Below are positions 12,575 through 54,284 of a stretch of 61,310 nt of DNA, in pieces (the first letter of the stretch is position 1; each line of letters starts with the position of its first letter). The stretch is from the IMG/VR virus record IMGVR_UViG_3300009506_001467, positions 1 to 61,310 of that record; one strand, given 5' to 3'. This stretch comes from a virus. The notes under the pieces are model-generated. The model did no database searches and was not told the DNA's origin. It worked only from the letters and a program-made list of their open reading frames with translations. A program made the translations under genes and the position numbers.

Positions 12575-13174
12575 ATGCCGGACACATTTCGTACCGGAAC
12601 AGACTGGGAGCAGAGCTCTGGGCCGCTGATCCCTGTGGACGTTCTCGAGAGCGATGTATGGCCCATCTCGGACAACAGCCGATCGGGTACCAAGGACGAG
12701 CTCGACCCCGGTCACCACCCCGTTATCGCCATCGGTGAGCGTACCCACGCCGCACGAGGCCAGCAGCTCACGGGCGTGGTCGTCTCTGTGCTCGAGGACA
12801 GCGTTACCCCGGCCAACGATCGGATCGTGGTCAACATCGCGCCGGGTATGATCATCCGCGACTATGTGGCAAACGTCTTGACGTACAGCGGTGGCGCTGC
12901 CAACACTTTTGAGACGTCCCCGTATATGGGCCAGCCCGTCTACGTTGACGACTCGGACGATCTGGGTGAAGGCGTGACCCTCTCGCTCTCTGAGCTCAAC
13001 GAGAACGACGACGACAACCCGCTGGCGGGCTACTTGTGGTACTGCCAGGATGAGATCGCAGACAGCCTGGCGGGTGGCGCTCGCTCGAGCTCTACCTTTG
13101 ACACCTCGCTGCCCGACGAGTTCACCGAGCAGGTGTTCTGTGTTCTGCTGACCAACGCGACCAGGGACATCTAG
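12575..13174 (+). CDS. Putative head decoration protein
   Basis: 199 residues; AGGAGG before the ATG. Beta-rich with acidic loops (SPYMGQPVYVDDSDDLGEGV). It lies between the scaffold and major capsid genes, the usual place for a capsid-stabilising or decoration protein, and it has its own strong ribosome site. Family not recognised; function inferred from position. Confidence 0.6.
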   Translation: MPDTFRTGTDWEQSSGPLIPVDVLESDVWPISDNSRSGTKDELDPGHHPVIAIGERTHAARGQQLTGVVVSVLEDSVTPANDRIVVNIAPGMIIRDYVANVLTYSGGAANTFETSPYMGQPVYVDDSDDLGEGVTLSLSELNENDDDNPLAGYLWYCQDEIADSLAGGARSSSTFDTSLPDEFTEQVFCVLLTNATRDI

Positions 13175-13213: not shown

Positions 13214-14347
13214 ATGATCACACGCAAACTGCTCCGGGCGATGTGCGAGACTTGGAAAGGCGAGCTCTCGGACGCCGGAGCGACACCACAACGGCTCGCA
13301 GAGTGCCAGAGTCTCTTTGAGGACATCGATCGCAACCTGTCGGGCGTCACCCCGACCAGCACGAATAACCTGCTGCTCCAAGAGGTGATGACGAGCGCCG
13401 ACTTCAACAACGCGATCCAGACCTTTGTGAGCAGGCTCTCGATCCCAGGCTACGAGCGCAAGGTATTCGCCTTTGAGCCCCTGGTGTGGATCGATACGCT
13501 CACAAACTTTTTGACCCATGACCGCTTGCAGAACCGCGGCTCGCTCGATGACCTCGAGCTCGTGGGCGAAAAGGGCGCGGCTCGCCCAGGCTCTGTGGAC
13601 GACGCCACCAAGCGATCGTACCGGGTCTACCTCTGGCAAAAGCAGTTCGATTTTTCCTGGGAGGCGATTCGCAACGATGACCTCTCGTACTTTGAGGACA
13701 CCGCCATGCGCATGGGCGAGGCCGCGCGCCGGACCCTGGAAAAGTTCGTCTCCCGCATGTACACCAACGCAACCTCGATCGCTCGTCTCACGGGCCTGGG
13801 CGCTCTCTATGCGCAGAATGGGCGCTTGACCTCTGCTCGAGTGAGCGAGTCCCGCATGGCGTACAACCAGCGCACAGACGCACGGGCAGAGCCGATCAAC
13901 GCCAGCATGCGCTACATCGTCCATCACACCGGGCTGGCAGACACCGTTGCACAGATCTTGGCCTCTGAGCTCGTCCCAGAGCTCGCGACCAACGCGGTCA
14001 ACGTCGCCCGAAACTTTATTCCCATCGAGGACCCGTACATCACGGGCACTGCCCCCAACCTACCGTGGTACGCATTCCCAGACTATCGCGAGAACAACAT
14101 CCGACCGTTTGTTCTGGCGCGTATGTCCGGCTGGGCGGGACCGCGCATCGTGCGCAAGCGATCGGACATCGAGGCCGTGACCTCAATGCTCGGCGCTGGT
14201 GCTCCTGTTGAGCCGATGATGGGAGACTTTGAGACGGGCAACGTGGTGCTCAAGGTCATGGACGTGTTCGGCACCTATGTCGATGGGACAGAGGGTAACT
14301 GGTTTGACTTCCGGGGTGGCTACTACTCTAGTGGCACCGTCGCGTAG
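13214..14347 (+). CDS. Major capsid protein (HK97-type fold, putative)
   Basis: 377 residues; AGGAGG before the ATG. The order of an N-terminal helix, a spine-helix-like region (MRMGEAARRTLEKFVSRMYT, about 165-185) and a C-terminal beta region (NVVLKVMDVFGTYVDGTEG) fits HK97-fold major capsid proteins. It follows the protease/scaffold and decoration genes and is followed by connector-type genes. Confidence 0.82.
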   Translation: MITRKLLRAMCETWKGELSDAGATPQRLAECQSLFEDIDRNLSGVTPTSTNNLLLQEVMTSADFNNAIQTFVSRLSIPGYERKVFAFEPLVWIDTLTNFLTHDRLQNRGSLDDLELVGEKGAARPGSVDDATKRSYRVYLWQKQFDFSWEAIRNDDLSYFEDTAMRMGEAARRTLEKFVSRMYTNATSIARLTGLGALYAQNGRLTSARVSESRMAYNQRTDARAEPINASMRYIVHHTGLADTVAQILASELVPELATNAVNVARNFIPIEDPYITGTAPNLPWYAFPDYRENNIRPFVLARMSGWAGPRIVRKRSDIEAVTSMLGAGAPVEPMMGDFETGNVVLKVMDVFGTYVDGTEGNWFDFRGGYYSSGTVA

Positions 14348-21728: not shown

Positions 21729-21893
21729 ATGTCTCTGTGGTGGAACGAGCTGGACACTATGATCGAGCTCGATCTACTGCAAGAATGGCAAGAGCTCTCT
21801 CCCGATCTGCGCACTGTACTGCTCGCTCGAGCTCGAGCAAAGGATACTATGAGAGCGTGGGAGGACTACATCTTGAATAGGAGAGCGCAATGA
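21729..21893 (+). CDS. Second part of the tail chaperone, probably reached by frameshift
   Basis: In this frame the sequence RNRYRKQGWWMSLWWNELDT and QEWQELSPDLRTVLLARARA continues to 21893 and looks coding, as expected for the T extension of a G/GT pair. It lies in the +1 (equivalently -2) frame relative to the 21077 gene and is already open before the 21700 stop. The ATG at 21729 lacks a good ribosome site. The stop overlaps the tape-measure ATG. Confidence 0.6.
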   Translation: MSLWWNELDTMIELDLLQEWQELSPDLRTVLLARARAKDTMRAWEDYILNRRAQ

Positions 21894-24682
21894 GCCAGCA
21901 ATTGCCACAGGACGGGGTGCGCCTTGTTGTGGAGGGTGTGTCTCAATTCATAGACAACATGAACAAGGCGGGTGTTGCTTGGGACAGGGTATCTGCCTCG
22001 TTCACGGATGCAAGCGGCAAGACCAGAACCTTAAGCGTCAGCACAGACAAGGTTGCCAGTTCTGTTGCAAAAGCGGGATCTGCGGCGAGCCAAGCCCTTA
22101 GCCCGTTTGATCAAATGATCAAGGGGTTCGGCCAGGGGGCGATCGGCGCGACCGGAATGAATGGCGCCTTGTCTGCCCTCTCTGGCGGTGTTGCGGGCGT
22201 CTCTGTCATGCTCGGTCAAGTGCTCGTTGCGGCGCTCAAGAAGGTTGGCGAGGCCCTCAAAACGATCTTTATAGATCTCCCCAAGGAAGCGGCCCCGCTC
22301 GAGGGCATCTCTGCTCAGTTCTCTACACTGACTCAAAACATCGAGGGCGGCTCCCGTAAAATGATGGCTGCGCTACAAGCGGGATCATCGGGTATGATCC
22401 CCATGCGCGATCTCATGACCCAGTTCAACAACGCCTCCGCTCTCGTGTCCGACCAGTTCGCTCAGAACCTACCGCAAGCACTGGGTCTCCTGGGGAAAGT
22501 CTCTGCCGCCACGGGCAAGGATATGAATTACCTCATGGAGTCTCTGGTCAACGGCGTTGGTCGTGTGACTCCTCTGGTCATTGATAACCTGACGGTTCAG
22601 GTCTCGCAAGCAGAGGCCACCGCCCGCGCCACGGAGATGTTCAACAAGCAAAAGGAGGCGCTCTCCAAGCTCGAGCAGCAAACCGCGCTCAACACTCTAG
22701 TGATGGAGAAACTAGAGGCCAAGTACGGCGCACTGCCTGACATCGGTGCGACAACCTCCGCGCAGCTCGCGGTCATGTCGGCGCACTTTCAGAACATCAA
22801 GGACATACTCGGGCAAGCAATGCTGCCCGCTTTCAATACTCTACTGACCACGCTCAATACTCTGGTGGGTACGATCTCGAGCATGCTCTCTGAGGGCGGC
22901 GAGCTCGAGCCCTGGCTGATCCGCATCGGGGCGCTGACGTCTCTATGGGCAGACGGTATAGCTATTCTGGGCGAGGCCCTTGGTCTCATAGCGCCCAAGG
23001 CGGCGGGCATGTACGACAACATTGCCAAGAGCGTATTTGGGATCATCGAGGACGCCCTCACATGGGGCGTTGAGCTGATCGCCCAGTTCGCAGCAGGAAT
23101 GGCAGAGGCAGCGAGCAGCATCCTGATCCAGGCACTTAACTTTATAGGCGGTATACTCGAGCAGTGGCTGCTGGGCGCATCGCCGCCCAAGATCGCGCCC
23201 GGCATCGAGCAATGGGGGATCAAGACCTTTGAGCGATACCTCACGGGCATGACTGAGGCAGACTTTGGCATACTCGAGGGCATCCAGAAGCCACTGCAAA
23301 AGATCCTCGAGGGTCCAGCTCTCGCCAACGTCTCCAAGATCATCTCAGGCGCCCTCGCTGGCGGCGATCGGGCTACGATCTTTGATACCGTCTCAAAGTC
23401 TGCCGGGATCTTTGGCAGTGCGATCAATAAAATGATCGGTCTGCAATTCGAGCTCGCGGACTCTACAAAAGCAGTAGAGGAGGCAGAGCTTGCTCTCGAG
23501 CAAGCACGCAACAAACTGCTCGGCCAGCAGGACGATGTGAACAAGGCCACCGTTGAGTACAACCGCTTGCTCAGAGAGGGCGCAGATCCAGCAGTTCTCA
23601 AGGAGAAACTGGCACAGATCAACGCAGCGGAGGAGGCCATGCGCCTGACTCAAGATCAGGTGCAGACCCAGGATGAGTTTATCTCGAGCGAGAAGCAGAG
23701 GATCGAGGGCATCAAGACAGAGGCAGAGCTGCAAAAGAAACTGGTGGATCAGCTCCTCGGGGTCAATGATGCGCTCCAAGTACAAGAGGAAAAAGGCAAG
23801 AAAGGCGCAGCGGGTGTCCCCACGATAGCCCCTGAGGTATCTGGCCTTACGGGCACGCTCGGCACGAGACTGGGCACAGCGATCGAGGGCATGAAAGAGA
23901 AGCTCAAGGAAAAGTTCAGAGACATCTTTGCTCCTCTGAGCGAGGCGTGGGACAAGATCGTGCTCAAGGTCGGGGACATCGGCACTGCCTGGGAAAAGTT
24001 CAAGGCCAAGGTCGGCTCTGTCTGGGATGATCTCAAGCTCAAGTACCCGGTGCTGCAAGACATCGAGGACCTGATCCAGAACCTCAAGACGTCGATCCCA
24101 GAGCTGGCAACAGAGCTTTCGGACAAGTTTCATAGTGCGTGGTCCAAGATCTGGGGCATTCTCTCAGGTCAAGAGGACGGGGGCATCCTAGGCGCACTGA
24201 CCGCAGTGTGGGATTTTCTCAAAGACTCATGGGGCACGATTATGGAGTCGGACGCAGCGAAAGCGATCAAGACCTTCACTACCGATGTGATCGAGAGACT
24301 CAAGACAGGCGTGGAGGGCATTGTAACCGCTGTGGGCAACATGATTGCAAAGATCGGGGAGCTCGCCCGCCTGCCGCTTGACAAGATCAGAGAGGCGCTC
24401 GGCTGGGGTATCGCAGAGTCGCCCGCGCCGCTTGCGCTTGGTCTGCAACAGATCAACAGAGAGCTTGTCAAGATGAGCGGATCGAGCTTGCCGAGTCTGG
24501 GGGGCTCTATGCGTATGATGCCCGCCATGGCTCCTGTGTCAAGCTCATCTATGACAACGAACAACAACAGTCCGATCCAGATCACTTTCTCTGGCCCGGT
24601 GACGATCGGCAGCACAAACGACATGCGCCAGTTTACGGCACAGCTCGAGCGCACTGTGCGCAATGTGATGGAGAGGCGATAA
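21890..24682 (+). CDS. Tape measure protein
   Basis: 930 residues, starting at ATGA with the chaperone stop. Mostly helical, with Ala/Gly-rich hydrophobic segments near 80-110 and 360-420 (AQFAAGMAEAASSILIQALN), long coiled coil at about 515-625 (ELALEQARNKLL, EEAMRLTQDQVQTQDEFISS), and a Met/Ser-rich end. It sets tail length. At about 0.15 nm per residue it implies a tail near 140 nm, a siphovirus-like value. Confidence 0.9.
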   Translation: MSQQLPQDGVRLVVEGVSQFIDNMNKAGVAWDRVSASFTDASGKTRTLSVSTDKVASSVAKAGSAASQALSPFDQMIKGFGQGAIGATGMNGALSALSGGVAGVSVMLGQVLVAALKKVGEALKTIFIDLPKEAAPLEGISAQFSTLTQNIEGGSRKMMAALQAGSSGMIPMRDLMTQFNNASALVSDQFAQNLPQALGLLGKVSAATGKDMNYLMESLVNGVGRVTPLVIDNLTVQVSQAEATARATEMFNKQKEALSKLEQQTALNTLVMEKLEAKYGALPDIGATTSAQLAVMSAHFQNIKDILGQAMLPAFNTLLTTLNTLVGTISSMLSEGGELEPWLIRIGALTSLWADGIAILGEALGLIAPKAAGMYDNIAKSVFGIIEDALTWGVELIAQFAAGMAEAASSILIQALNFIGGILEQWLLGASPPKIAPGIEQWGIKTFERYLTGMTEADFGILEGIQKPLQKILEGPALANVSKIISGALAGGDRATIFDTVSKSAGIFGSAINKMIGLQFELADSTKAVEEAELALEQARNKLLGQQDDVNKATVEYNRLLREGADPAVLKEKLAQINAAEEAMRLTQDQVQTQDEFISSEKQRIEGIKTEAELQKKLVDQLLGVNDALQVQEEKGKKGAAGVPTIAPEVSGLTGTLGTRLGTAIEGMKEKLKEKFRDIFAPLSEAWDKIVLKVGDIGTAWEKFKAKVGSVWDDLKLKYPVLQDIEDLIQNLKTSIPELATELSDKFHSAWSKIWGILSGQEDGGILGALTAVWDFLKDSWGTIMESDAAKAIKTFTTDVIERLKTGVEGIVTAVGNMIAKIGELARLPLDKIREALGWGIAESPAPLALGLQQINRELVKMSGSSLPSLGGSMRMMPAMAPVSSSSMTTNNNSPIQITFSGPVTIGSTNDMRQFTAQLERTVRNVMERR

Positions 24683-27600
24683 TGAGCGAGGCAAGAAACT
24701 ATTACACGATGTTCTCCAAGTTTTTGATCACAAACGGAACGATCGAGGTCGATCTGCTCTCGCTCTCATCCACAACAGGCCTTCACCTTGTCACGTGGGA
24801 GCCGAGCATCGCCCAGCCAAAGAGCTCTAGTGTGTGGTCTGATCCCGCGCTCTCAGATGGCGGCGATCCACACACAGAGGCGCTCGCTAACGTCGAGGAG
24901 GCCATGACCTTTGACGTTGCAGCGTGGAACGATCCCGATCTCTACAAGATGGTACAGGATCTACGCTACCTTCTCAGAGAAGCAAAGCGATACTGGATGA
25001 CCGGGTATCAGGTAGACCCCGTGTGGATTGTGCGCCAGGGGATCTGTGAGGACAACCCCGGTTACTCGATGGTCAAGGCGGGGCTCACCCCGACAGATGA
25101 CGATCCGTTCCACGACCCGGTAGCGCCTGAGTTCGGCAGCGTTGCCTACATAGACTGGCCCATGACTCTGATCAGAGAGCCGCTCTGGCGAGACGTTGAG
25201 CCGGGGGATACAGAGTGCCTCCCCGCCTATGGTAGCAAGGAATACTGCTACCCCTGCCACGTGGAGTTCGATGGTGACTCGGGTGATATTACGATACCAG
25301 ACGTTGCTGCGGTTCAAGATCTTGCTGATAACGCGATGACTGTAGAAGCATGGGTCAGAGCAGATGGCTACGGCCTGGACAATGAGGGCTGGATCGCCGC
25401 AAAGTATAGCAGCACTGGCTGGTTGCTTATCCTGCATGGTACTGTGGGCCTTTGGGCACAAATAGAGTGCGCGGTCACTGATAGCTACGCCAGGTCATTC
25501 TCGCTTACTCCGGATGGGGAATGGCACCATGTCGCATTCACCTGGGATGATAGTTCATACAGGCATCCTAGATTGTGGGTGGATGGAAAAGAAGCAGATT
25601 ATGCGGATGTGCAGGAAAGAAGCGGTGCGATTGTCTCCGATGTTGGGAGTGTTCTAACGATTGGAGAGAGACTAACAGGAATCAACACCTGGGAAGGTGG
25701 AATCGGCTGGTCGCGCATCTCAGACATCGTGCGCTATGACCGGGACTTTACGCCTCCCTCACGGTGCCGCTTGCCAGAGGATGATGGTAACACGGTTGGC
25801 GCGTGGATTGGCTATGAATGCTCTGGTTCTACCATCGTGGACCACAACGACCCCACGGCTGGCACATTGGACGGAACCCTGACCAGTGGCACGTTCGATT
25901 GCGATTGCTGGACCCTTGCAGGGCAGATCGGGGATGAGGGAATCGGGTATCTTGAGTACCGCAACCTGGACACCGTCGCACAGGTGACGGACGATGCTGC
26001 ACTCCAAGACCTTGCCGACGCGGCGATGACCATTGACGGTTGGTTCAGGGCGCGCTTTGCAACATCCTCTGGAAACCTGCTCATTGAAAAGGGACAGGCA
26101 GGTGGAGCAGGCTGGCAGGTCTGGATCACTGCTAGCGGCTCACTACTCGTGCGCATTGAGTGCGCCGTTACGGATGCTGTGTCCTATGCGTCCGCGGCGA
26201 TTACCTGGGGTGAGTGGCAACATTGGGCCATCACCTGGGACGATGCATCGTACACGGTAGCACGGGTATGGATCAACGGGGTGGAGGACACAAACACGAG
26301 CACGGCACGCAACGGCGCGATTGTCTCGGATGTCGGACGAGACATGTACATCGGCGTGCGCCTCGGTTCTGCCAACGAGTTTGACGGGGATATCGGTTGG
26401 GTTCGCATCTCGGACGAGGTTCTCTGGACGTCAGACTTTGACGACGATCTACCCGAACGCTGCGAACTGCCCGTGGTCGATGCGAACACGATCTGGCTCG
26501 GCATACAGGAGGGTGAGGGTGTCGTGGCCTACGATCACAGCGGCAACGACAACCACGCCGCTCTCTCTGCGCTCAATTGGGGCAAGGACTGTTGCGGTGA
26601 CATCGCAAGTGTGGACGTCACAGAGATCAAGAACGCCTATGTGATCTGTGATGGCGCGGATACGATCATCACCTACACCGACGCCGCGCAGATCCAGGAC
26701 TTGCATGATGCGGCGATGACCGTGGAGGCTTGGATACGGGCCGACTCGGCGGGAGAGTCAAACCAGGGGCACATCATTGGCAAGGATGCAAATGAGACAC
26801 TGGGCTGGTTCGTTCGCATGACGGCAACGGGATTCTACGCCGAGATCGTGTGTGCTGTGGCTAGTGGGACGGTTGCAACAACCTTTGTGGCTGCTGGCGT
26901 CTCTTTCGGGGAGTGGCTGCATATCGCCGTCACCTGGGATGATGCTACATATAACTACCCGCGCCTGTGGATCAATGGAACAGAGTACTCAACGACAACG
27001 AACAACAGGAACGGTGCGGTGGCTACAGATGTTGGATCAGATCTCGTTGTCGCAAACCAGCAAGACCTTGCAGCGACCTTTGACGGGGACATCGGGTGGG
27101 TGCGTGTCTCTCCCTCTATCCTCTACACGGGTACGTTCACCCCTCCCGACCGATGCACGGCTTGGTGGGATCTAGTTCTGGGTGGTGTCGCACTGCTCAC
27201 GATCTTTGATGAGCATGGCGAGGTTGCCCTGGATTACACTCCCTACTACAACCACGGCATCATCGCGGATGGGGACTGGGGATCATCCTGTGCGGTCGAG
27301 CAGGACATCTCATGTGCCTACTCACTCGGGGCGAGCTTGCCAGCGGAAGTGTCGGCAACATGTCTAGAGATCAACTATGTGATCAACTCACACGTCCGAA
27401 GGCAGTTTACTCACATGTTCATTGCGGACTGGGCGGGTGGAGCAGTTTGGAACTATAGCGGAAACCTGATCGGAACAGAGGGAGAGATCATACTGCTCCC
27501 GGCTGCGCCAGCGGTCAACGATCGGATCTTTATAGGGATCGCGAGCGGCCACCCAGCAGCTCAGAGAATGGGAAACATTGTCTGGGATATTGCCACGCCA

Positions 27601-28842
27601 GCAGAGGACATAGACTTTGCTGTGAGAGTGCTGCAAACAGGTGGTGCCTCACAATCCGTGTACGCAACGTATCACAGGGACAACACATCGACCGATCCGA
27701 CCACGATCGTATCGCCCAAGGATGCGCTTTCGGTAGAGGGAATCAATGCTCTTGTGTGGACCGCTGGCGCTTGGGCAACCCCAGAGACGATCAACGGCAT
27801 TCTCGGTTACTGGCTGCGCTATGAGGTTGGGGCGCTGGGCGGCAGTCCCGTGGTCCCGATCGCTGCAAGTGCGCCCTATACGGTGACGTGGCCTTATGTG
27901 ACCGTACACACGGACGATCTCGGCGGTGATGAGCTCTTGCTGATCAAGGCGACTCTGCACAACCAGTCCGATCTTGACTATCAAGGGTATGGCTCAACGA
28001 CCAAGCTCCTTGTAGGCTCAAGAGAGCTTGATCGAGGAGAGGACTTTACAGCCTATCTGCTCTGTGGCTCAGAGGAGCTGCCCCCTGGACAGACCAACAC
28101 AGCGGGAACCAATGCTGCACTGAACACAAACGGCACAGGCGATCCAAACTCGCCCAAGTCCGAATGTCGCTATACTCCCGTGGCAACGCCCGAGGCGCTG
28201 GCAACTCGTCTCACGATCTCTCTAGACTCTACACTTGGTCCACAGTTTCATGGCAACTACCACTGTTATGCTCGTTTTGGTTCATTCAACGGCGGCACAT
28301 GGCAAAGCAGAATAGCAGTTCGGAATGGGAGCAGCGGCCAAGTACTCTACGGAGAAACTGTAACACACGGAAATGGCCTTCGGTTCGCAACCTTCGATCT
28401 AGGAAGCATTACCCTGGGAGAAGCAAACCCGGACACTGAGTTTGATCAGATCAACATATACTGGCAAGCGGGACGGGTGACAGGCGGCACATATCTCGAG
28501 CTCGTTGATCTGTTCATTCTGCCCGTGGACGAGTGCTCTGGGATCTTTGACATGCTGGGCACAAGTAGTTTCCTCACGCCCGACTATGCAGAGCTGGATA
28601 GTGCAACGTTTCCACGAGAGCAGATCATCGCAGTGGTGAGGGATGAGAACGATCTGCAAGTCGGCAGAATGCTCGCGAATGCCACGATCCTGGGCTTGCA
28701 GCCCAAGAGAACGCAGCGACTATGGTTTTTCTCATATGGCCTGGACGCGTCGAGCAACGAGCTCGCCTATCCCTACATCATGTACACGGTCGGGCTCGAG
28801 CGGGTGCAACGCTATTGGTCTATGCGGGGAGATGAGACATGA
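24682..28842 (+). CDS. Distal tail protein with three LamG-like domains
   Basis: 1,386 residues. The first 185 resemble a distal tail protein N-terminus. Three tandem laminin-G/concanavalin-type jellyroll domains follow (about 195-395, 425-620, 650-860), each with the markers AMTVEAW or AMTIDGW, a GEWHHVAFTWDD-like motif, and DGDIGWVRIS or EGGIGWSRIS. After about 940 the chain returns to a tail-like beta region. LamG-type domains bind sugars or proteins, so these may contact the cell surface. Codon usage in the first repeat is less like the flanks. Confidence 0.82.
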   Translation: MSEARNYYTMFSKFLITNGTIEVDLLSLSSTTGLHLVTWEPSIAQPKSSSVWSDPALSDGGDPHTEALANVEEAMTFDVAAWNDPDLYKMVQDLRYLLREAKRYWMTGYQVDPVWIVRQGICEDNPGYSMVKAGLTPTDDDPFHDPVAPEFGSVAYIDWPMTLIREPLWRDVEPGDTECLPAYGSKEYCYPCHVEFDGDSGDITIPDVAAVQDLADNAMTVEAWVRADGYGLDNEGWIAAKYSSTGWLLILHGTVGLWAQIECAVTDSYARSFSLTPDGEWHHVAFTWDDSSYRHPRLWVDGKEADYADVQERSGAIVSDVGSVLTIGERLTGINTWEGGIGWSRISDIVRYDRDFTPPSRCRLPEDDGNTVGAWIGYECSGSTIVDHNDPTAGTLDGTLTSGTFDCDCWTLAGQIGDEGIGYLEYRNLDTVAQVTDDAALQDLADAAMTIDGWFRARFATSSGNLLIEKGQAGGAGWQVWITASGSLLVRIECAVTDAVSYASAAITWGEWQHWAITWDDASYTVARVWINGVEDTNTSTARNGAIVSDVGRDMYIGVRLGSANEFDGDIGWVRISDEVLWTSDFDDDLPERCELPVVDANTIWLGIQEGEGVVAYDHSGNDNHAALSALNWGKDCCGDIASVDVTEIKNAYVICDGADTIITYTDAAQIQDLHDAAMTVEAWIRADSAGESNQGHIIGKDANETLGWFVRMTATGFYAEIVCAVASGTVATTFVAAGVSFGEWLHIAVTWDDATYNYPRLWINGTEYSTTTNNRNGAVATDVGSDLVVANQQDLAATFDGDIGWVRVSPSILYTGTFTPPDRCTAWWDLVLGGVALLTIFDEHGEVALDYTPYYNHGIIADGDWGSSCAVEQDISCAYSLGASLPAEVSATCLEINYVINSHVRRQFTHMFIADWAGGAVWNYSGNLIGTEGEIILLPAAPAVNDRIFIGIASGHPAAQRMGNIVWDIATPAEDIDFAVRVLQTGGASQSVYATYHRDNTSTDPTTIVSPKDALSVEGINALVWTAGAWATPETINGILGYWLRYEVGALGGSPVVPIAASAPYTVTWPYVTVHTDDLGGDELLLIKATLHNQSDLDYQGYGSTTKLLVGSRELDRGEDFTAYLLCGSEELPPGQTNTAGTNAALNTNGTGDPNSPKSECRYTPVATPEALATRLTISLDSTLGPQFHGNYHCYARFGSFNGGTWQSRIAVRNGSSGQVLYGETVTHGNGLRFATFDLGSITLGEANPDTEFDQINIYWQAGRVTGGTYLELVDLFILPVDECSGIFDMLGTSSFLTPDYAELDSATFPREQIIAVVRDENDLQVGRMLANATILGLQPKRTQRLWFFSYGLDASSNELAYPYIMYTVGLERVQRYWSMRGDET

Positions 28843-30020
28843 TCCCGGCACACAACATCTGTATCCACGTCTGGAAGCCCCTGATCGTCGCCGGGACATC
28901 ATACGTTCCCCGCGGCTCTCTGATCACCGACTCGCTGATCGAGCGCATCGGGCCGGGAGACTATTCTCACACGACTCAAGCAGACGGCTGGTGGTGGAGC
29001 GCATCGCTGCGACTCTCGGGATCTATCTCCTACATAGACTGGTGGACGCTCAACGGTCTGGGTCTGCACATCGAGACGTACTCTCCCGATCGCACCTTGA
29101 TCTTTGCGGGCTTTGTCAATTCTCTAGATGCAAGCGGCGGCACGTTCTCAGGTCGTCAGGGAGCTCTGCTTGACATCGGCAACCGCATCGAAGTACAGTA
29201 CTCCCCCATTCTCGATGCAACGCTTGCCCAGCCCCTAGTCGGACCGCAACGGGTAACAACGATCGCAGAGGACACGGACTCACAAGATCGTTATGGGATT
29301 TTTGATCAGACCGTGAGCGGCGGCGAGCTGCTGGACGATGGCGTAACAGACCACGCCACACAGTACAGAGATCTCTATCTCTATGAGAACACATGGCCTC
29401 AACACTCTGAGCAGTTCTCCCTAGAGGGCTCTGCGCCCGCCTCGATCACACTAGAGATTCTAGGCTACGGACACATGTTCGATGCGATCAACTATTCCGA
29501 TCTGAACACAAACACGGTCACGATCACGACCAAGCTCGGTTACGTACTCGCAGCGGATCCCAATGGTCTGTTCAACACCTCAACCAGTTACATTGCCACC
29601 AACGCAGTGCTCGCGCCTCGGTATGATGACAAGGGACGCTCTGGGCTCACTGTGATCGAGAACTTGATCAAGCTCGGGGATGTCTCAAGCAACCGCTACC
29701 TGTGGGGGGTCAAAGCAGATCAGACCCTACACTACTGGCAAGCGCCCACGGATCCATACTATGAGCACAGAATCAGAGATCGTGTTCCTCGAGTGCTGCG
29801 CTACGGCACGTCTCAAGAGATCTACCCGTGGGACATCGAGCCGGGACGAATCGTGTTCCTGTCTGACTACCTGCTGGGTCAGAGCATACCAAGTGATCGC
29901 CGTCGCGATCCCAGATCTGTGTTCATCGAGCAGGTGCAGTATACCTATCCCTGGGACGTCTCGATCAGCGGAGCGCAGCAGTTCAAGCTCCCACAATTCC
30001 TAGCCAACGTGAGGGGATGA
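28839..30020 (+). CDS. Tail hub-like protein
   Basis: 393 residues, ATGA overlap with the upstream gene. Beta-rich (WWWSASLRLSGSISYIDWWT; LLDIGNRIEVQYSP), with a stretch like the hub/Tal N-terminal domain of siphovirus tails. It follows the distal tail gene, where the hub is expected. No peptidase motif seen. Confidence 0.65.
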   Translation: MIPAHNICIHVWKPLIVAGTSYVPRGSLITDSLIERIGPGDYSHTTQADGWWWSASLRLSGSISYIDWWTLNGLGLHIETYSPDRTLIFAGFVNSLDASGGTFSGRQGALLDIGNRIEVQYSPILDATLAQPLVGPQRVTTIAEDTDSQDRYGIFDQTVSGGELLDDGVTDHATQYRDLYLYENTWPQHSEQFSLEGSAPASITLEILGYGHMFDAINYSDLNTNTVTITTKLGYVLAADPNGLFNTSTSYIATNAVLAPRYDDKGRSGLTVIENLIKLGDVSSNRYLWGVKADQTLHYWQAPTDPYYEHRIRDRVPRVLRYGTSQEIYPWDIEPGRIVFLSDYLLGQSIPSDRRRDPRSVFIEQVQYTYPWDVSISGAQQFKLPQFLANVRG

Positions 30021-30021
30021 G

Positions 30022-30804
30022 ATGAAACGAGCGCAGCTCAACGATCCACGAATAGACGATCTCACCACCTCGTTTTTCAACAAGCAAGACGATGTGTGGC
30101 TGCAGGATGGAAACGATGTTCACCCGGATGATGACGATTATGGTCTGTTCGATCGCCTGATCAACTATGGTTACGATCCGATCGAGCACTGGCGCTATGG
30201 CACGGATGATGACGCGGGCTGGACGGGTTGGGCTGCCTATGCGGGCTTTGTGACTCCAACGTCACGAGTGCGAAACTACTCAACCTTGAGTATAGCCCAC
30301 GGTTCGGCAACCAGAATGTTCTACTATCGTACTCTTGCTGGAGCACCAACGACCCTAAAAACTCGTTGCCGAGCGTACTGCTGGCGTACTCTTGACATGG
30401 GCATGATGTGGGATGATGGCGTAGACGCGGGCGATAACCTAGGGGCCAATAACTTTTTTCGCTATATGGTCCACGTGAGCGCAACGAACACAAACGCCCG
30501 CTTGCGTACGGAATACAGACTTGCCGCTGGCGCAATCACGACAACCGACTACCTTGTATCGACCGTAGCCAAACAAGACGGCACAGGAATCACTATGCAA
30601 GCGACCGGGACATTATGGACCGCTTGGAGCGTGTTCATCTTTCTGGAAGGCGAAAAAACGCTTCCAACAACACCTCTCTTGATCGGTACAGTAGGCGGCG
30701 CTGGACTGAACTTCACACCCACTAGGATAGGTGTGTATGCACAGTCGCCCGGCGGCCTGGCGATCGTCGGCGGTTGGGATTGGTATGATGAGGAGATCAC
30801 ATGA
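30022..30804 (+). CDS. Tail tip protein, possible receptor-binding jellyroll
   Basis: 260 residues, one base after the hub stop. Aromatic- and Asp-rich N-terminus (DDAGWTGWAAYAGF), then a beta-sandwich-like region ending GGLAIVGGWDWYDEEIT, which resembles the end of carbohydrate-binding jellyrolls. Function inferred from position and pattern. Confidence 0.6.
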   Translation: MKRAQLNDPRIDDLTTSFFNKQDDVWLQDGNDVHPDDDDYGLFDRLINYGYDPIEHWRYGTDDDAGWTGWAAYAGFVTPTSRVRNYSTLSIAHGSATRMFYYRTLAGAPTTLKTRCRAYCWRTLDMGMMWDDGVDAGDNLGANNFFRYMVHVSATNTNARLRTEYRLAAGAITTTDYLVSTVAKQDGTGITMQATGTLWTAWSVFIFLEGEKTLPTTPLLIGTVGGAGLNFTPTRIGVYAQSPGGLAIVGGWDWYDEEIT

Positions 30805-32486
30805 GCGATAACCCCTACATCTGCGCTATACACGAGCCCCCGCCTGATCCGTGGCTCGAGCAGTACATGACAGTGAGCGGCAGAGCCGCAGGTTGGATCG
30901 TGCACACTCACGGACTCGGGCACAATCCAGCAGACTTGAGCGGGTACGACTACTCGAGCTGGTCGACCAGAGGATACGGCAACATAGCACGACTCAACAA
31001 CGGCTATGGACCGACGCAAGGAACGATCCCGATCGATCCTGCTCAGTATGCGAACTTTGCCATGCGAGTGCAGAACTGGGTCAAGAGCTCGAGCGGTTGT
31101 CGGCACTGGGTCATCGGCAACGAGCCGAATGCCGGAGTGGAGGGCAAGCACTCAAAAGAGCATTATGCGCAGTGTTTCAAGCTCTGCTATGCGATGATCA
31201 AAGAGGTACAGCCAGACTCGGTTGTGATGGCTGCACCCGTCGCCATGTGGAACGTTGAGACAGAGGACTGGCTCGTGTACTACTCACAGGGGCTCGAGCT
31301 CTGCGCTCCTGTGGATGCGCTCTGCTGGCACACGTACACACATGGATCAGACTCGAGCCTGATCACAGACATGACGACCATGAACGTACCCTATCAAGAT
31401 CGCCTGTACCACTTTCGAGCGTACCAGGATCTCTGGGCGTGGACGCCTGACAGATACAAGAGCTATGATGTCTACCTCACAGAGATGGATCAAGGTGACG
31501 TCGGCGGTGTGCGCAACCCCTGGCGCAACGAGCAAGGGGTGAACTGGCTGCAAGCCGCCTATGCAGAGCTCAACGAGTGGAATGAGCAGCACAGCGGGCA
31601 GATCAAGTGTGGTGCTGCGTACAGGTGGCCCAAGATAGATGAGTGGTACATTGAGAGCAAGGAACACGTCTACACAGACATGCGCCTTGCTGTGGACAGA
31701 GCATACAGAACAGAGGAGGAAACAGACATGATCTTGATCGGCAGTGAATCATTCAATGGTCCCTATGTCCCGAGAGACGATCCGAACCCGCCATACGATC
31801 AGAACGTGGGCGAGCTCAAGATCCAGCAGGGATGGGAAGGGTTCTGGGTATGGCAGGGTGTGAACCCACCCGATCCAACGCAGATGAGGCGCCCTGAGTT
31901 CTTTGTCTCTCACGGGGACGATCCGGACGATCAGCTCGATCTCTGTCAGGCGGTACAAACCACGTTCTCCACATCGGATAACTGTGTGTGGAAAAAGTTC
32001 ACGACCGCCCCCGGCGCAGAGCTGCTGGTCAACGTGCGAGCAATGATCGACAGTGATCCGCTTGCGCAGCATGCTCTAGTGATGGGCATAGACCCCCTGG
32101 GCGGCGAGGATATGTTCTCGAGCTCTGTGCAGTGGAGCGAGTGGCTCAACCAGTCTGTGCCCATGAAAAAGTGGCACGATCTGACCATAGACGGAGTGAT
32201 CGCACAGGCAAACAGGTGTACTGTGTTCTTGCGCAGCAAGACGGACTATGCCAAGAACTCGGCGGGGCACTGGGACGATCTCGAACTGTACGCAGATCTA
32301 GAGAGCCCGCCCGACCCGCCCGACCCAGGAGAGGGACATACGATCACAACCGTCTCGATCACCTATCTGGACGGAAAAGAGATCGCCCGCTCAGAGTCTA
32401 CGGCACAGATCACATGCGGTGACGTGGACCCTCAGGCATGCGCTCTGGCACAGCAGCTCGCCGCGATGCTCTGCTTGAGTGCATAA
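30801..32486 (+). CDS. Glycoside hydrolase-like tail protein with C-terminal binding domain
   Basis: 561 residues, ATGA overlap. Residues 1-300 look like a TIM-barrel glycosidase of clan A type: HWVIGNEPNAG (candidate acid Glu, about 106) and YLTEMDQGD (candidate nucleophile Glu, about 229). It might degrade host polysaccharide or capsule. Residues 310-500 resemble a carbohydrate-binding beta-sandwich (GWEGFWVWQGVNPP), then a Pro/Asp linker (SPPDPPDPGEG). An in-frame ATG at 31728 with GAGGAGG sits at the domain border. Confidence 0.72.
   Translation: MSDNPYICAIHEPPPDPWLEQYMTVSGRAAGWIVHTHGLGHNPADLSGYDYSSWSTRGYGNIARLNNGYGPTQGTIPIDPAQYANFAMRVQNWVKSSSGCRHWVIGNEPNAGVEGKHSKEHYAQCFKLCYAMIKEVQPDSVVMAAPVAMWNVETEDWLVYYSQGLELCAPVDALCWHTYTHGSDSSLITDMTTMNVPYQDRLYHFRAYQDLWAWTPDRYKSYDVYLTEMDQGDVGGVRNPWRNEQGVNWLQAAYAELNEWNEQHSGQIKCGAAYRWPKIDEWYIESKEHVYTDMRLAVDRAYRTEEETDMILIGSESFNGPYVPRDDPNPPYDQNVGELKIQQGWEGFWVWQGVNPPDPTQMRRPEFFVSHGDDPDDQLDLCQAVQTTFSTSDNCVWKKFTTAPGAELLVNVRAMIDSDPLAQHALVMGIDPLGGEDMFSSSVQWSEWLNQSVPMKKWHDLTIDGVIAQANRCTVFLRSKTDYAKNSAGHWDDLELYADLESPPDPPDPGEGHTITTVSITYLDGKEIARSESTAQITCGDVDPQACALAQQLAAMLCLSA
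31728..32486 (+). CDS. Possible separate binding-domain product from an internal start
   Basis: The ATG is in frame (codon 310) and follows GAGGAGGAAACAGAC, an excellent ribosome site, exactly where the barrel ends. It would give a free 252-residue binding domain, as internal starts do in some phage endolysins. The GAGGAGGAA also encodes Glu-Glu-Glu, so chance is possible. Confidence 0.45.
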   Translation: MILIGSESFNGPYVPRDDPNPPYDQNVGELKIQQGWEGFWVWQGVNPPDPTQMRRPEFFVSHGDDPDDQLDLCQAVQTTFSTSDNCVWKKFTTAPGAELLVNVRAMIDSDPLAQHALVMGIDPLGGEDMFSSSVQWSEWLNQSVPMKKWHDLTIDGVIAQANRCTVFLRSKTDYAKNSAGHWDDLELYADLESPPDPPDPGEGHTITTVSITYLDGKEIARSESTAQITCGDVDPQACALAQQLAAMLCLSA

Positions 32487-32503: not shown

Positions 32504-33031
32504 GTGTTCTCTGATATAAAAGTTCTGGTCGTGGATGATGACTATGACATAAGACAGGTCACCCGCAAGGTGCTTGCCTCCATGTCGTTCACTGTGGATG
32601 TGTCGGACACACTGAGCGGGGGACTGGACAAGATCGAGGAAGCGGACATCTTGCTGCTTGATCTGCGACTCAAGAACGGCATGGGGGACACATTGCTGCA
32701 ACGATGGCGGGACGAGAAGCGGGGGCCAGTGATCGTCATGTCGGGGTACGTCGATCAAGCTCTCGAGAATGAGCTGCTTGAGAGCTATGTGGATAACGTA
32801 CTGCACAAGCCAGTACCGCCCTCAGTGCTGCGCTCCGTGTTCTTTCGGATCGGCTGTCTTGTGCGAGACGCAAAGAAACTGTCCGAGCTCACTTGTGAGA
32901 TCTCAGAGCTCAGTGAGAAGATCTCGCGGCTGCAAAGGCGGGTCTGGATCTTGACGGGGGCAGCGGTCGGGTTCGGAATCGCCGCGGGGGTCAGTGTGTC
33001 CCCGCTTCTCTCTCTGATCGGGGTCGGTTGA
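32504..33031 (+). CDS. Membrane-anchored response-regulator receiver (REC) protein
   Basis: 175 residues. GTG start at 32504 behind AAAGAAGG; an ATG at 32438 would overlap the previous gene and lacks a site. Residues 1-120 are a full REC domain: acidic pocket VDDDYD, phosphoacceptor Asp in LLLDLRL, Ser in VIVMSGY, Lys in LHKPVPP. A coiled-coil helix (KLSELTCEISELSEKISRLQ) and one hydrophobic segment (VWILTGAAVGFGIAAGVSV) end the chain. REC domains take phosphate from histidine kinases; no DNA-binding output is present. It lies next to a holin-like gene, so it may link host signalling to lysis. Confidence 0.85.
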   Translation: MFSDIKVLVVDDDYDIRQVTRKVLASMSFTVDVSDTLSGGLDKIEEADILLLDLRLKNGMGDTLLQRWRDEKRGPVIVMSGYVDQALENELLESYVDNVLHKPVPPSVLRSVFFRIGCLVRDAKKLSELTCEISELSEKISRLQRRVWILTGAAVGFGIAAGVSVSPLLSLIGVG

Positions 33032-33059
33032 TCATGATCATCATGATCATGTACATGAT
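33029..33059. repeat. TGATCATGATCA cluster before the holin-like gene
   Basis: Overlapping TGATCA/ATGATC units form a self-complementary tract starting at the stop of the REC gene and ending about 20 bases before the ATG at 33081. Similar GATCATGATC tracts lie at 42510-42531 and 54144-54215. Candidate operator. Confidence 0.7.
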
Positions 33060-33080
33060 ACACTAGAAAAGGAGATCAAC

Positions 33081-33467
33081 ATGTTGTCAACAGTAGTACC
33101 GCTGGTAGGCTGGGTCTCTCTCGTACTGCTCATGGCGCAGCCTGTGGACTGGACATCTCCCGCCGAGGTGCTGATCTGGATCGTCTCTGGGGCGGGTGCT
33201 GGCGCGATCGCGTTTGGGCTCTGGGAGCTCTTTGAGCGATGGTGGCCCAAGCTCGCAGAGCTCTCCGCTTTCGTTGAGCGAGTGATCACACTTGCGCTCA
33301 CCGTGCTCGTGGCGCTCATTGCTTACGGGTTGCAGCTCGCGGCGAGCTATAGAACGGTCCCAGAGACGTGGATGGGAGCAATAGAGGAGATCTTTGCGAT
33401 CGCAGCGATGGCGATCATGACCGCTCTCACCATACACGGGGTCAAGCACGAGATCCAGCACTCTTGA
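33081..33467 (+). CDS. Holin-like membrane protein
   Basis: 128 residues; AAAGGAG before the ATG. Four hydrophobic stretches: about 3-19, 31-47, 70-88 and 103-121 (IFAIAAMAIMTALTI), with short charged loops and a basic C-terminus (HGVKHEIQHS). Holins have this size and layout and make the pore that starts lysis. Last gene of the rightward structural block; the SleB-like hydrolase is far away at 53090. Confidence 0.65.
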   Translation: MLSTVVPLVGWVSLVLLMAQPVDWTSPAEVLIWIVSGAGAGAIAFGLWELFERWWPKLAELSAFVERVITLALTVLVALIAYGLQLAASYRTVPETWMGAIEEIFAIAAMAIMTALTIHGVKHEIQHS

Positions 33468-33493
33468 CAGAGCCCCCCGGCTCGTGCTACAAT
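33464..33493 (+). promoter_or_regulatory. Rightward promoter at the end of the structural block
   Basis: TTGACA (33464-33469), 18-bp spacer, TACAAT (33488-33493). The dyad GTGCTAC/GTAGCAC (33484-33490, 33495-33501) is centred on the -10. No ORF follows before the terminator at 33531-33568. Confidence 0.75.
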
Positions 33494-33497
33494 GGTA

Positions 33498-33568
33498 GCA
33501 CTATAGGGGAGGGCACACAGCCCAACAAGAAAAGAGACCCGCTCCCGAGAGGGCGTGAGTCTCTTTTT
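33498..33568 (+). ncRNA. Predicted ~70-nt RNA (promoter-terminator unit 1)
   Basis: Starts about 6 bases after the -10 at 33488-33493 and ends at the terminator. It contains a small GGG/CCC hairpin and the terminator stem. No coding capacity. A similar unit lies at 9239-9307, and two leftward units at 35387-35457 and 35266-35335. Confidence 0.5.
33531..33568. terminator. Bidirectional terminator between convergent operons
   Basis: AAAGAGAC...GTCTCTTT with an inner CCC/GGG stem and U-tracts on both strands. It ends the rightward block (33467) and the leftward block (33685). Confidence 0.85.
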
Positions 33569-42509: not shown

Positions 42510-42531
42510 GATCATGATCAGGATCATGATC
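42510..42531. repeat. Two GATCATGATC units
   Basis: Direct copies at 42510-42519 and 42522-42531, overlapping the stop of the Dam-like methylase gene and adjoining the -35 of the recombination promoter. Each unit holds two GATC sites. Confidence 0.7.
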
Positions 42532-43294
42532 AAAACGGGAGCTGCCCTCTCAGTCTATAGTCCTTGACACACACATACACATCCCCGATCTCGTTGTATG
42601 CTCTGTCAAAGTCTCCCACGTCGATTCCCAGCCCAAAGATCGCACTCGGGAACGTCGCCGGGCCGATCTCTGTGCTGCCATCTGTTGTAGGTTTTAGAAA
42701 CTTGAGACGACCCCAGACGTTACACCGGGGGAACTCTCTGAGCTCTCTATACCACGCCGTGTCTGTCCGCGATGCGATCAAGATCACAGCTTGCCTGACT
42801 CGCTTGGCCTCGTACTCTGCGAGCAGCTTGTCCACAAACTTTGCCTGGACGTTGCTCTTGTTATACGGCGGGTTCATGAACACCCGAGACGGGATCGCGC
42901 CCATGTTCCCCGGCAGCTCGATGTGCCACTCTCTAGTGAGCGAGTCGTCCTCTACAGTCCAGTGAACGAGAGCAGGAATGTTGTAGCTCCTACCCTCTGG
43001 CGTCGTCTCTGAGCACGGGTCGAGATCGATCCCGCTCATGAGCTGCTCTGCTGGACCCCACACAGCCTGGGGTGAGAGCCAGATCACAGAGCCAGAGCTC
43101 TGCGTGATGTTCTCCTTTTTGACGAACCCGGCGATCTCTACCTCTGCTGTGTTCCGCTCGTGCTCTGCGCCACAGTCTGGGCATATCGCCTCTACCTCGT
43201 TGTCGCCCATCCACTGCTTGTGCGTCGTCTCTGTATCCCAGATCGCTGCGCACTTGCGGCAAACCCATGTGAGCCGTATGTTGTACTCAGCCAT
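42530..43294 (-). CDS. Dam-like N6-adenine DNA methyltransferase with zinc ribbon
   Basis: 254 residues from ATG at 43294. A zinc ribbon (CRKCAAIW, then CPDCGAEH) starts the chain. Catalytic motif FMNPPYNKS (NPPY) with IDLDPCSE before it matches phage Dam (DNA N-6-adenine methyltransferase) enzymes. The likely target GATC is inferred from the family; the genome is rich in GATC, including the promoter-linked GATC clusters. The methylated site is untested. Confidence 0.82.
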   Translation of the reverse strand: MAEYNIRLTWVCRKCAAIWDTETTHKQWMGDNEVEAICPDCGAEHERNTAEVEIAGFVKKENITQSSGSVIWLSPQAVWGPAEQLMSGIDLDPCSETTPEGRSYNIPALVHWTVEDDSLTREWHIELPGNMGAIPSRVFMNPPYNKSNVQAKFVDKLLAEYEAKRVRQAVILIASRTDTAWYRELREFPRCNVWGRLKFLKPTTDGSTEIGPATFPSAIFGLGIDVGDFDRAYNEIGDVYVCVKDYRLRGQLPF

Positions 43295-50131: not shown

Positions 50132-50347
50132 ATGGATCAAGTACATGTCGGAGAGATCACGGTAACACGGATTCTAGGTATCACCGAGCCGCTGGCCTTG
50201 ATCTATCACCGCACAAAAAAGATCGTAGGCTACATTCTACCCGCCACCCAGGAGACTAGAGAGCTCTTGGGCATCGACCCCGAGACGGGGCAAGAGCAAG
50301 GGGAGGGACCATGCTCGCAGCACTTGACATCGGATACGGAGCAGTAA
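50132..50347 (+). CDS. Small hypothetical protein
   Basis: 71 residues; TAGGAG before the ATG. Beta-rich start (VHVGEITVTRILGITEPLAL). Overlaps the ParM-like gene by 37 bases. No family recognised. Confidence 0.6.
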   Translation: MDQVHVGEITVTRILGITEPLALIYHRTKKIVGYILPATQETRELLGIDPETGQEQGEGPCSQHLTSDTEQ

Positions 50348-51303
50348 AGATCGCATGCGGGGGCGAGCGCAGGACGTTCCCAAGTGTGACGGGATCGCCG
50401 GACTTGCATCGTTTTGGACTGAGCGCAGCGGACGAGATCATTATCTCGAACCACATCGGTCGCACGCTGATCGGGAGTGCAGCCGTGGAGCAGTCCCGGT
50501 TTGTGAGACGTGAGGAGGATCGGCGCTGGATACGTTCTGAGCAGTACACTGCTCTCTACTACGCCGCCCTCACAGAGATCAGCAGGGAACCGGCAGAGAT
50601 CACCCTGATCTCGGGTCTGCCCCTCGCGTACTTTGACGACAAGGACGAGCTGAAAGAGATCTTGTCCGGTGCGCACAGGGTCACTAGAGAGTACGCGGAC
50701 GGAGTGCGCTCGAGCTCATACGACGTACAGGCGCACATCATTCCCCAGCCGTTCGGGACGCTCTGCTCGATGGCGTTTGACAAGAGCGGATCGCCCAAAG
50801 ATACATCGTGGCTCTCGGGGACCGTGGGAATTCTTGACGTCGGCTCTCACACAACCAACATCCTCACGACCTCGAGGGGGCGAGAAGTCCCGCACGGCAC
50901 GACCTCTGTGCCTACGGGCTGCTGGGACATCGTGAGGGCGATCTCCGCTCGAGTCTCTGAGCTCTTTCCACAGCTCGAGCGCAGAGATCATGATCTGGTC
51001 AACGACATCATTGCCAAGCGAGTTACCTACCTCGGTCGAGAGTACAGCATCGAGAAGGCGATCGCAGAGGTCTGCACACCGATGGCGGCAGAGATCATCG
51101 CCACCGCCTCACAGTACTGGAACGGCGGCGCAGCTCTGGACAAGATCGTGATAACAGGAGGCGGCGCACACCTGATCGGTGAGCACGTCTCGCTACACTT
51201 TGCGCAGCACGAGCAGGTGTACATCGCTCCCGATCCTGTGTTCGCAAACGTGGACGGGTACTTGCGCTATGGGTTCTACTTGCAGAGTCAAGGAGAGGTC
51301 TAG
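50311..51303 (+). CDS. ParM/Alp-like actin-fold ATPase
   Basis: 330 residues; AGGGGAGG before the ATG. Actin-fold phosphate loops: LDIGYGAVKIACGG (residues 5-18) and ILDVGSHTTNI (about 172-182), and adenosine motif KIVITGGGAHLIG (about 277-289). This is the layout of plasmid ParM and phage Alp proteins, which form filaments that push or position DNA. A ParR-like gene follows at 51846. Confidence 0.85.
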   Translation: MLAALDIGYGAVKIACGGERRTFPSVTGSPDLHRFGLSAADEIIISNHIGRTLIGSAAVEQSRFVRREEDRRWIRSEQYTALYYAALTEISREPAEITLISGLPLAYFDDKDELKEILSGAHRVTREYADGVRSSSYDVQAHIIPQPFGTLCSMAFDKSGSPKDTSWLSGTVGILDVGSHTTNILTTSRGREVPHGTTSVPTGCWDIVRAISARVSELFPQLERRDHDLVNDIIAKRVTYLGREYSIEKAIAEVCTPMAAEIIATASQYWNGGAALDKIVITGGGAHLIGEHVSLHFAQHEQVYIAPDPVFANVDGYLRYGFYLQSQGEV

Positions 51304-52341: not shown

Positions 52342-53097
52342 ATGAGAGCACAGCAGACTAGACCACCAGCAGTATATGGACCCACAACGGGCGACGTCTC
52401 GCTCCAACAAGACAAGTTTGACCAGGTCAAGACGGTGTGGCGTCTCACCATACGCTACGCATCCGGCCGAACGATCGCCTACATCTGTGTGCTGGGCATC
52501 GTCGCCTTGCTGCTCTCTCTGTGGCGGGGCTGGGCCTTTGTGTGGTGGCTCGTACAGTGGACATACGAGGTTCTGATCTGCGTTCTGCTCGCCATCTGGG
52601 CGCACTCGTTCCGAAAGGTCTCTAGAGAGTACTACGCTGTGGCGATACGCAACCCGGCGTGGCCTCTGCCTTACAGCCAGGTGGACCCGCACCTTGCGGG
52701 TGTCACGGGGGCAAGAGACTTTCCAACGCTCGATGGGCCGATGGAGCAGCAAGAGGTCGTACACAGGTTCAAGGGCACCGTTGTGCTGCCAAACGGGGGC
52801 AGCAGGCTTGCAGAGATCGAGACGACAACGCCCGATCTCTGGCTGCGCTATGCGCAAGCACTGACGAGGCGGCTGTTTCCCGTCAAGTTCTCGGGCAACG
52901 TGGCAGAGCATGTGTTCCACATCTATCGTCCCGAGTGGCAGAGGATAGCAGACTCGATGTGCTCAAACCAGATGGCCTACAAGACGTCCTATGCAGAGAA
53001 TGCTCACGTGCACTTGAGAGAGAGCGGCAAAGAGTGGTTCCGCTCTATGTTGCGGGGAGAGATCGGGTTCAAGATACCGGAGGGTGAGAATGAGTAA
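52342..53097 (+). CDS. Two-pass membrane protein
   Basis: 251 residues. Hydrophobic segments at about 46-62 (IAYICVLGIVALLLSLW) and 66-88 (AFVWWLVQWTYEVLICVLLA). The soluble C-terminal 160 residues include TRRLFPVKFSGNVAEHVFHI. No family recognised. Overlaps the hydrolase start by 8 bases. Confidence 0.65.
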   Translation: MRAQQTRPPAVYGPTTGDVSLQQDKFDQVKTVWRLTIRYASGRTIAYICVLGIVALLLSLWRGWAFVWWLVQWTYEVLICVLLAIWAHSFRKVSREYYAVAIRNPAWPLPYSQVDPHLAGVTGARDFPTLDGPMEQQEVVHRFKGTVVLPNGGSRLAEIETTTPDLWLRYAQALTRRLFPVKFSGNVAEHVFHIYRPEWQRIADSMCSNQMAYKTSYAENAHVHLRESGKEWFRSMLRGEIGFKIPEGENE

Positions 53098-53560
53098 AGC
53101 CATCGCTCTTGCGATCGTGCTCACACTGGGCAGCTCTCGAGCAGCTCAACAGGTACAGCTTGACGATCGCTACTACATGGCGAAAGCAGTACAAGGGGAG
53201 GTAGGTGTCATGGGCGATCTGCGCTTGCAGACCGGGACGTGGATCGTCCATGTCATCCTGAACAGACAAGCGAGCAGGTGGTTCCCATCACAGATCAAAG
53301 ACGTTGTAGATCAGGGGTTCTATGGCGCAGCGACGATCGCAGAGCCCGACCCGTGGGCCTACGAGGTCGTGGACTTTGCGCTCTTGGAGCGATCCTGGGG
53401 GCTCGATCCCACACGTGGGGCACTCTTTGTCTTTGGGGGCATCGACCTGCTCGAGTGTATGGACTACTCTCTACGAGTCGGGTACGCAGAGCGAGAGGGT
53501 ACAGACTTTTCGGTCCACGTGTTCTCTACGTGGCCTTACCCAGCGGGGTGTGCGAGATGA
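53090..53560 (+). CDS. SleB-like cell-wall hydrolase with signal peptide
   Basis: 156 residues from ATG 53090 behind GGAGGGTG. Signal peptide MSKAIALAIVLTLGSSRA. The core YYMAKAVQGEVGVMG, VIHVILNRQ-like IVHVILNRQASRWFPSQIKD, DQGFYG matches cell wall hydrolases of the SleB type, with the catalytic Glu in QGEVG. Likely the endolysin; it would reach the wall through the signal peptide. Confidence 0.72.
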   Translation: MSKAIALAIVLTLGSSRAAQQVQLDDRYYMAKAVQGEVGVMGDLRLQTGTWIVHVILNRQASRWFPSQIKDVVDQGFYGAATIAEPDPWAYEVVDFALLERSWGLDPTRGALFVFGGIDLLECMDYSLRVGYAEREGTDFSVHVFSTWPYPAGCAR

Positions 53561-54252: not shown

Positions 54253-54284
54253 AGGCGCACAGAATGAAAAGGGGAGACAGTACA

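Follow-up and report, generated by a model that had tools for sequence, protein, structure and literature searches.

The 61,310-base IMG/VR record analysed here (the window) encodes a protein, termed REC-TM, that consists of a response-regulator receiver followed by a helix and one hydrophobic C-terminal segment, without an output domain. The same gene is present in one related phage, and comparison of the two copies indicates strong purifying selection. From the pattern of conservation, the C-terminal segment is a probable membrane anchor. In both phages, REC-TM and a small protein with up to four predicted membrane segments (4-TM protein) are the last two genes of a presumed late cluster. 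Our tentative reading is a late-expressed, membrane-tethered phospho-receiver that times lysis jointly with the 4-TM protein. This reading was ranked first because of the position of the gene, the pairing, the Gly-rich helix and the precedents for paired lysis proteins with one and with several membrane segments.

Receiver domain and its conservation

The window carries terminase, capsid, tape measure, tail, helicase and ParM-like genes; the ParM-like actin gene is at 50311-51303. A second record, IMGVR_UViG_3300028840_002618 (64,290 bases), is syntenic with the window over most of its length and has REC-TM in the same place, 68% identical (the relative). Contamination or a stray host gene was ruled out by the occurrence of the gene in the same place in a separate phage contig, together with the whole-genome synteny, and REC-TM is phage-encoded, as the initial annotation had it. 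The GTG start is supported, as similarity to the relative begins exactly at that codon and a purine-rich, ribosome-site-like sequence lies 5' of it in both phages. The features of the region are given in Table 1.

Table 1. Coordinates of REC-TM, its neighbours and the endolysin candidate in the window.
Feature	Position	Strand	Description
Upstream neighbour	30801..32486	+	561 aa; motifs WVIGNEPN and TEMDQGD; WDD-containing C-terminal part; 63% identity to copy in relative; 17 bases separate it from the REC-TM start
REC-TM gene	32504..33031	+	175 aa, GTG start; evidence: Response_reg profile, relative, hydropathy, dN/dS
REC-TM parts			Receiver, residues 5-111; helical linker, ~106-146; C-terminal membrane segment, ~147-165; short tail
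Membrane-segment codons	32942..32998	+	Gly/Ala-rich VWILTGAAVGFGIAAGVSV, residues 147-165; GxxxG spacing at G152/G156 and G158/G162
Gap between REC-TM and 4-TM	33032..33068	+	ATGATCA palindrome/hairpin, -12.5 and -17.8 kcal/mol; similar element in relative's gap
4-TM protein	33081..33467	+	128 aa; N-in/C-in by prediction; resemblance to holins limited to size, topology and position
Promoter, sigma-70-like	33464..33493	+	TTGACA-N18-TACAAT, overlaps 4-TM stop; same motif in relative
Intrinsic terminator	33530..33567	+	Closes rightward late cluster; hairpin, T runs on both strands; -20.4 kcal/mol (relative -18.8)
Endolysin candidate, only one found	53084..53560	+	SleB/Hydrolase_2-like; N-terminal signal-like segment; different cluster

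The Pfam Response_reg profile (PF00072) matches residues 7-111 with an E-value of 2.7e-15 and 56.9 bits, and the copy of the relative with 3e-16 and 60 bits, for a curated cut-off of 30.2 bits. A PDB profile search at 1e-6 returned receiver proteins only, such as 3q9s and 3crn. All receiver residues had been claimed to be present, and the active site is indeed complete in both phages, with the acidic pair D11/D12, the phospho-acceptor D53, S80 and K102. The Asp and the Lys, the loss of which in relatives was to count against the claim, are both kept in the sole relative found. At the position of S80, Thr is commoner than Ser in receivers. The 'switch' position, which is aromatic in most receivers, is occupied by V99 in both phages, and given this residue the coupling in REC-TM may be unusual.

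Past residue 111, no domain was found at the curated cut-offs of Pfam and NCBIfam and none was significant in PHROGs, in keeping with the output-less protein described initially. The receiver is followed by a predicted helix (residues 106-160, low-confidence model) with a predicted coiled-coil-like spacing, and then by the hydrophobic segment. An AlphaFold2 model from the two-row alignment (pLDDT 51, pTM 0.36) was too poor to judge the (beta-alpha)5 fold of a receiver. A coiled coil with a membrane segment of the XhlA type was searched for in Pfam and not found. A match of the C-terminal 66 residues to DUF7201 (0.0039) stayed below the cut-off and was not obtained with the relative.

Between the two phages, identity is 77% in the receiver, 50% in the linker and 64% in the membrane segment. 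Receiver codons differ by 63 third-position and 9 second-position changes. The dN/dS (NG86) is 0.055, a value to be read as strong constraint and not as a number, dS being saturated. All 25 receiver substitutions lie more than one residue away from the active-site residues (P 0.03). That the five active-site residues themselves are kept is unsurprising (P 0.27). The profile E-value and the selection exclude chance.

The fold could instead serve only to bind proteins, without being phosphorylated, in membrane assembly for lysis or virion exit. The atypical V99 and the lack of an output domain would suit such a scaffold, and single-domain receivers that work through protein binding are common. 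Pseudo-receivers, however, usually lose some catalytic residues, whereas REC-TM keeps all of them, including D53 and K102, in immediate surroundings that are more conserved than the rest. Since the active site is kept, this alternative is considered quite unlikely.

Probable C-terminal membrane segment

The segment formed by residues 147-165 is only moderately hydrophobic, with scores of 1.87 (Kyte-Doolittle) and 1.96 (GES) in the window and 1.83 and 1.92 in the relative. The Kyte-Doolittle threshold for a membrane segment (1.6) is exceeded in both phages. The single membrane segment of the initial annotation, which was to be abandoned if none was predicted, is recovered in both copies by the hydropathy scales. 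In the window copy it is followed by 10 uncharged residues.

When the composition was shuffled, about 30% of the sequences reached an equal 19-residue hydropathy peak. Only 0.2% reached the 29-residue uncharged run of REC-TM, and 6% the 19-residue uncharged run of the relative. The Gly and Ala of residues 147-168 are all identical between the phages (8/8), compared with 6/14 of the other positions, and the substitutions at residues 147-163 are I/L, V/L or F/L. As shuffles often reach the same peak, the conservation of Gly and Ala is better evidence for a membrane segment than the hydropathy. This retention would fit a Gly-zipper helix packing against other helices. In pinholin helices, GxxxG motifs are believed to be important, according to PMC13056207.

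By the hydropathy scales, REC-TM has the features of a tail-anchored protein, namely one C-terminal hydrophobic segment, a short tail and preceding positive charges. The latter are provided in both phages by a basic RLQRR stretch just before the segment, which places them on the presumed cytoplasmic side.

Neighbouring genes and candidate roles

The rightward cluster consists, in order, of the tape measure gene (21890-24682), tail protein genes (24682-30020), a gene for a 260-residue protein (30022-30804), the upstream neighbour, REC-TM, the hairpin gap, the 4-TM gene, the promoter and the terminator, past which the genes run leftward. We infer late expression from the structural genes in the cluster. 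The product of the upstream neighbour appears glycosidase-like by eye from its motifs; it has no significant match in Pfam, the PDB or phage records.

REC-TM and the 4-TM gene are kept together in the relative, where the initial annotation had proposed looking for the pair in other phages. Their conservation as a pair is read from a single comparison, with one relative. The 4-TM protein is 50% identical between the phages and has four hydrophobic segments in the window copy, of which three are above the threshold in the relative. Its AlphaFold2 model is a helical bundle (pLDDT 75.8, pTM 0.70) without a significant fold match, PDB included; the best viral match is a 110-residue protein (E 0.012, 34% identity). 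It is a small protein with several predicted membrane segments, encoded by the last gene of the late cluster before the terminator. The initial annotation placed REC-TM beside a holin-like gene. An open reading frame of this kind does adjoin it, but no holin family was recognised in Pfam, NCBIfam or PHROGs, the best match being the holin family phrog_1299 with an E-value of 0.37.

The gap between the two genes is also readable as a Met/Ile-rich mini-frame, MIIMIMYMIH followed by a stop. Clusters of the ATGATCA palindromic repeat are found in the window at 33034-33049, 42514-42532 and 54145-54213, the last of which flanks a CCCCATA...TATGGGG hairpin. In the relative they are found at 12067-12094, 13647-13720 and 33371-33451 (reverse-complement coordinates), two positions being common to both phages. 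Possible roles of these clusters are those of an operator, a transcript hairpin or a partition site.

Downstream of the 4-TM gene, the strong promoter-like site, a GGGAGGGcacacaGCCC hairpin and the terminator (33464-33567; 12620-12717 on the reverse complement of the relative) form a conserved candidate for a short RNA of about 75 nucleotides, which has no Rfam match at the gathering score.

No endolysin gene is present in the REC-TM cluster, which in this respect is not a lysis cassette. The candidate listed in Table 1 lies about 20 kb away. It scores below the cut-offs for Hydrolase_2 (E 0.0013) and spore_SleB (E 0.00023), and matches the endolysin family phrog_12490 with an E-value of 0.0014. 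Other membrane proteins are encoded nearby, at 52342-53097 and 54264-54737. As the sole endolysin candidate is found there, beside a protein with two membrane segments, the lysis genes proper may lie around 53084-53560. No direct support was gained for a holin identity of the neighbour or for the suggestion that the phage tunes lysis through the pair; for a role in entry, also suggested initially, no support at all was obtained.

The 260-residue protein is 33% identical between the phages, while neighbouring tail genes are 64-85% identical, and it is likely to be a receptor-binding protein. The fast evolution of this nearby protein, as expected of receptor-binding proteins, is a point for superinfection exclusion or modification of the host envelope, in which REC-TM and the 4-TM protein would protect the infected cell or block the entry of other phages. 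They are two small conserved membrane proteins that match no membrane family, and their genes adjoin the end of the tail cluster concerned with receptor interaction. Yet they close a late cluster, whereas expression of exclusion genes typically occurs early or from a prophage, and no similarity to exclusion proteins was found in Pfam or PHROGs. This role is regarded as very unlikely.

The receiver of REC-TM is the only one in each of the two phages. Histidine kinase (HATPase_c) or Hpt domains were not detectable in the window or the relative, although these families were found in most control genomes, and the phosphodonor would therefore have to be that of the host. The main rival of the lysis reading is a decoy, which we regard as somewhat unlikely. 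A receiver tethered near the membrane kinases of the host would drain phosphate or compete with host regulators, for example those of envelope stress, without making any hole. An output-less receiver at the membrane, with an intact active site and no phage kinase, is what such a sink needs, and the decoy explains the receiver and the anchor as simply as a lysis switch does. Interference of a phage with host two-component systems is known from PIT4 of phage LSL4, as described in passages of PMC10714779. Against the decoy, the position in the late cluster places it at the end of infection, with little time for reprogramming, and neither the pairing with the 4-TM protein nor a Gly-zipper is needed for a sink.

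For the preferred role in lysis timing, the topology, oligomerisation, phosphorylation, partnership with the 4-TM protein and lysis function that we infer are as follows. REC-TM would be a late-expressed, tail-anchored, single-domain response regulator, with its receiver in the cytoplasm and its last helix continuing as a probable coiled coil. The Gly-zipper membrane helix would anchor the protein, in an N-in/C-out orientation, and probably oligomerise it. D53 would probably be phosphorylatable by a host histidine kinase or a small phosphodonor. Phosphorylation would change the state of the dimer and thereby the packing of the membrane helix, either by itself or together with the 4-TM protein, and this packing change would set the time of membrane opening at the end of infection. 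Membrane energy is a known input to the timing of lysis. The full version of this scheme, a phosphorylation-gated switch in which the receiver reads the phospho-state of the host (kinase or acetyl phosphate) and the Gly-zipper helix and its 4-TM partner decide on membrane opening, is judged unlikely.

If phosphorylation of D53 shifts the time of lysis, this would be a direct test of host two-component signalling as an input to a phage. As a decoy, REC-TM would instead offer phages a compact means of silencing envelope-stress responses of the host. Either would be new; what stands is the anatomy of the protein and its conservation.

Known systems, database searches and other elements

REC-TM resembles the single-domain regulators CheY, DivK and Spo0F and the receivers of OmpR and FixJ in its profile and its Asp-Asp/Asp/Ser/Lys site, and CheY and Spo0F also lack an output domain. 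It differs from the CheY/DivK/Spo0F type by the helical linker, the C-terminal anchor, the Val switch residue and its place in a phage late cluster.

A phage-encoded receiver is not new, as illustrated by phrog_731 and by the cREC of jumbo phages (PMC7824862). REC-TM matches positions 2-135 of phrog_731 (7.2e-17), a family of phage receiver proteins of 227 positions and unknown function, but the remaining 90 or so positions are unmatched and REC-TM has a membrane anchor instead. Like REC-TM, cREC is a receiver fold in a phage without a kinase (PMC7824862). It is divergent and tied to NAD/ADP-ribose enzymes, whereas REC-TM is conventional and lies beside tail and membrane genes. Phage-borne receivers never linked to kinases having been described in jumbo phages (PMC7824862), REC-TM might be a divergent enzyme of this type, whose targets would be NAD-derived or cyclic nucleotide signals, in line with the proposal made there. 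This is extremely improbable: REC-TM scores as an ordinary Response_reg (56.9 bits), and none of the surrounding elements (tail, glycosidase-like and 4-TM genes, terminator) was recognised as NAD-processing.

Precedents for paired proteins with one and with several membrane segments in phage lysis are given in passages of PMC13056207 and PMC9671378. In the holin-like actinophage pairs LysF1a/LysF1b (Girr/NBJ), the two proteins are encoded next to each other after the tail genes, like REC-TM and the 4-TM protein. LysF1b, unlike REC-TM, is N-out/C-in, has a charged tail and lacks a receiver, and the actinophage cassettes contain the endolysin gene that the REC-TM cluster lacks. The four-segment proteins of Gordonia phages match the 4-TM protein of the window in size and predicted topology. 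No sequence similarity is shown for any of these actinophage proteins. By description, REC-TM may also be likened to the type IIIb holin of PhiKZ, cited in PMC13056207 as having a single membrane segment, N-in/C-out, and a globular cytoplasmic domain; no receiver domain is mentioned in the passages of PMC13056207 that describe this holin.

The collections and literature searched yielded no membrane-anchored, output-less receiver closing a phage late cluster, and the literature yielded no phage lysis protein carrying a phospho-receiver. No paper on phage-encoded or membrane-anchored response regulators was retrieved by strict phrase matching, which is weak evidence of absence.

IMG/VR was scanned with REC-TM, its alignment, the 4-TM protein, TerL, the MCP, the glycosidase-like protein and a tail protein, and yielded one phage with the gene. 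The other matches were a 22.9-kb fragment, a 10-kb fragment without a match, neither of which reaches the region, and a distant TerL. Scans of GTDB genomes with the C-terminal half of REC-TM and with TerL gave nothing confirmed. Both types of scan need short exact peptide matches, so that distant relatives can escape. For the whole REC-TM architecture, no homologue was found besides IMGVR_UViG_3300028840_002618.

Receivers of named phages are 25-32% identical to REC-TM, two of them being annotated as KdpE. The matches in MT838547 and MT836352, faecal scaffolds labelled 'Bacteriophage sp.', were rejected as ordinary receiver and DNA-binding genes with a histidine kinase gene behind each of them; these scaffolds look bacterial. 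Plasmid matches were annotated as ordinary response regulators, and the best-covered one has, past the receiver, a FixJ/LuxR-like helix-turn-helix region and no membrane anchor. P1312_040 of Thermobifida phage P1312 (25530-25973), annotated as 'sensory protein kinase CreC' and located beside an amidase, was also rejected, as it has one membrane segment and a coiled coil and is not a receiver; it is probably a misannotated lysis membrane protein. The nearest named TerL, also from phage P1312, is 37.5% identical, too distant for host assignment.

Elsewhere in the window, the stretch 9205-9295 (53244-53340 on the reverse complement of the relative), which immediately precedes a gene, combines a promoter-like site with a terminator-like hairpin no more than about 75 bases behind it. 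This element is a candidate attenuator or short RNA. A radical-SAM protein is encoded near the left end of the record (1600-2850, E 1.3e-10). Promoter-like sites on the minus strand near 798, 35260, 38607 and 50038 have a common downstream box like GGCTCTTGACAGTGAGCATAC, which is possibly an operator or a second promoter element of the phage.
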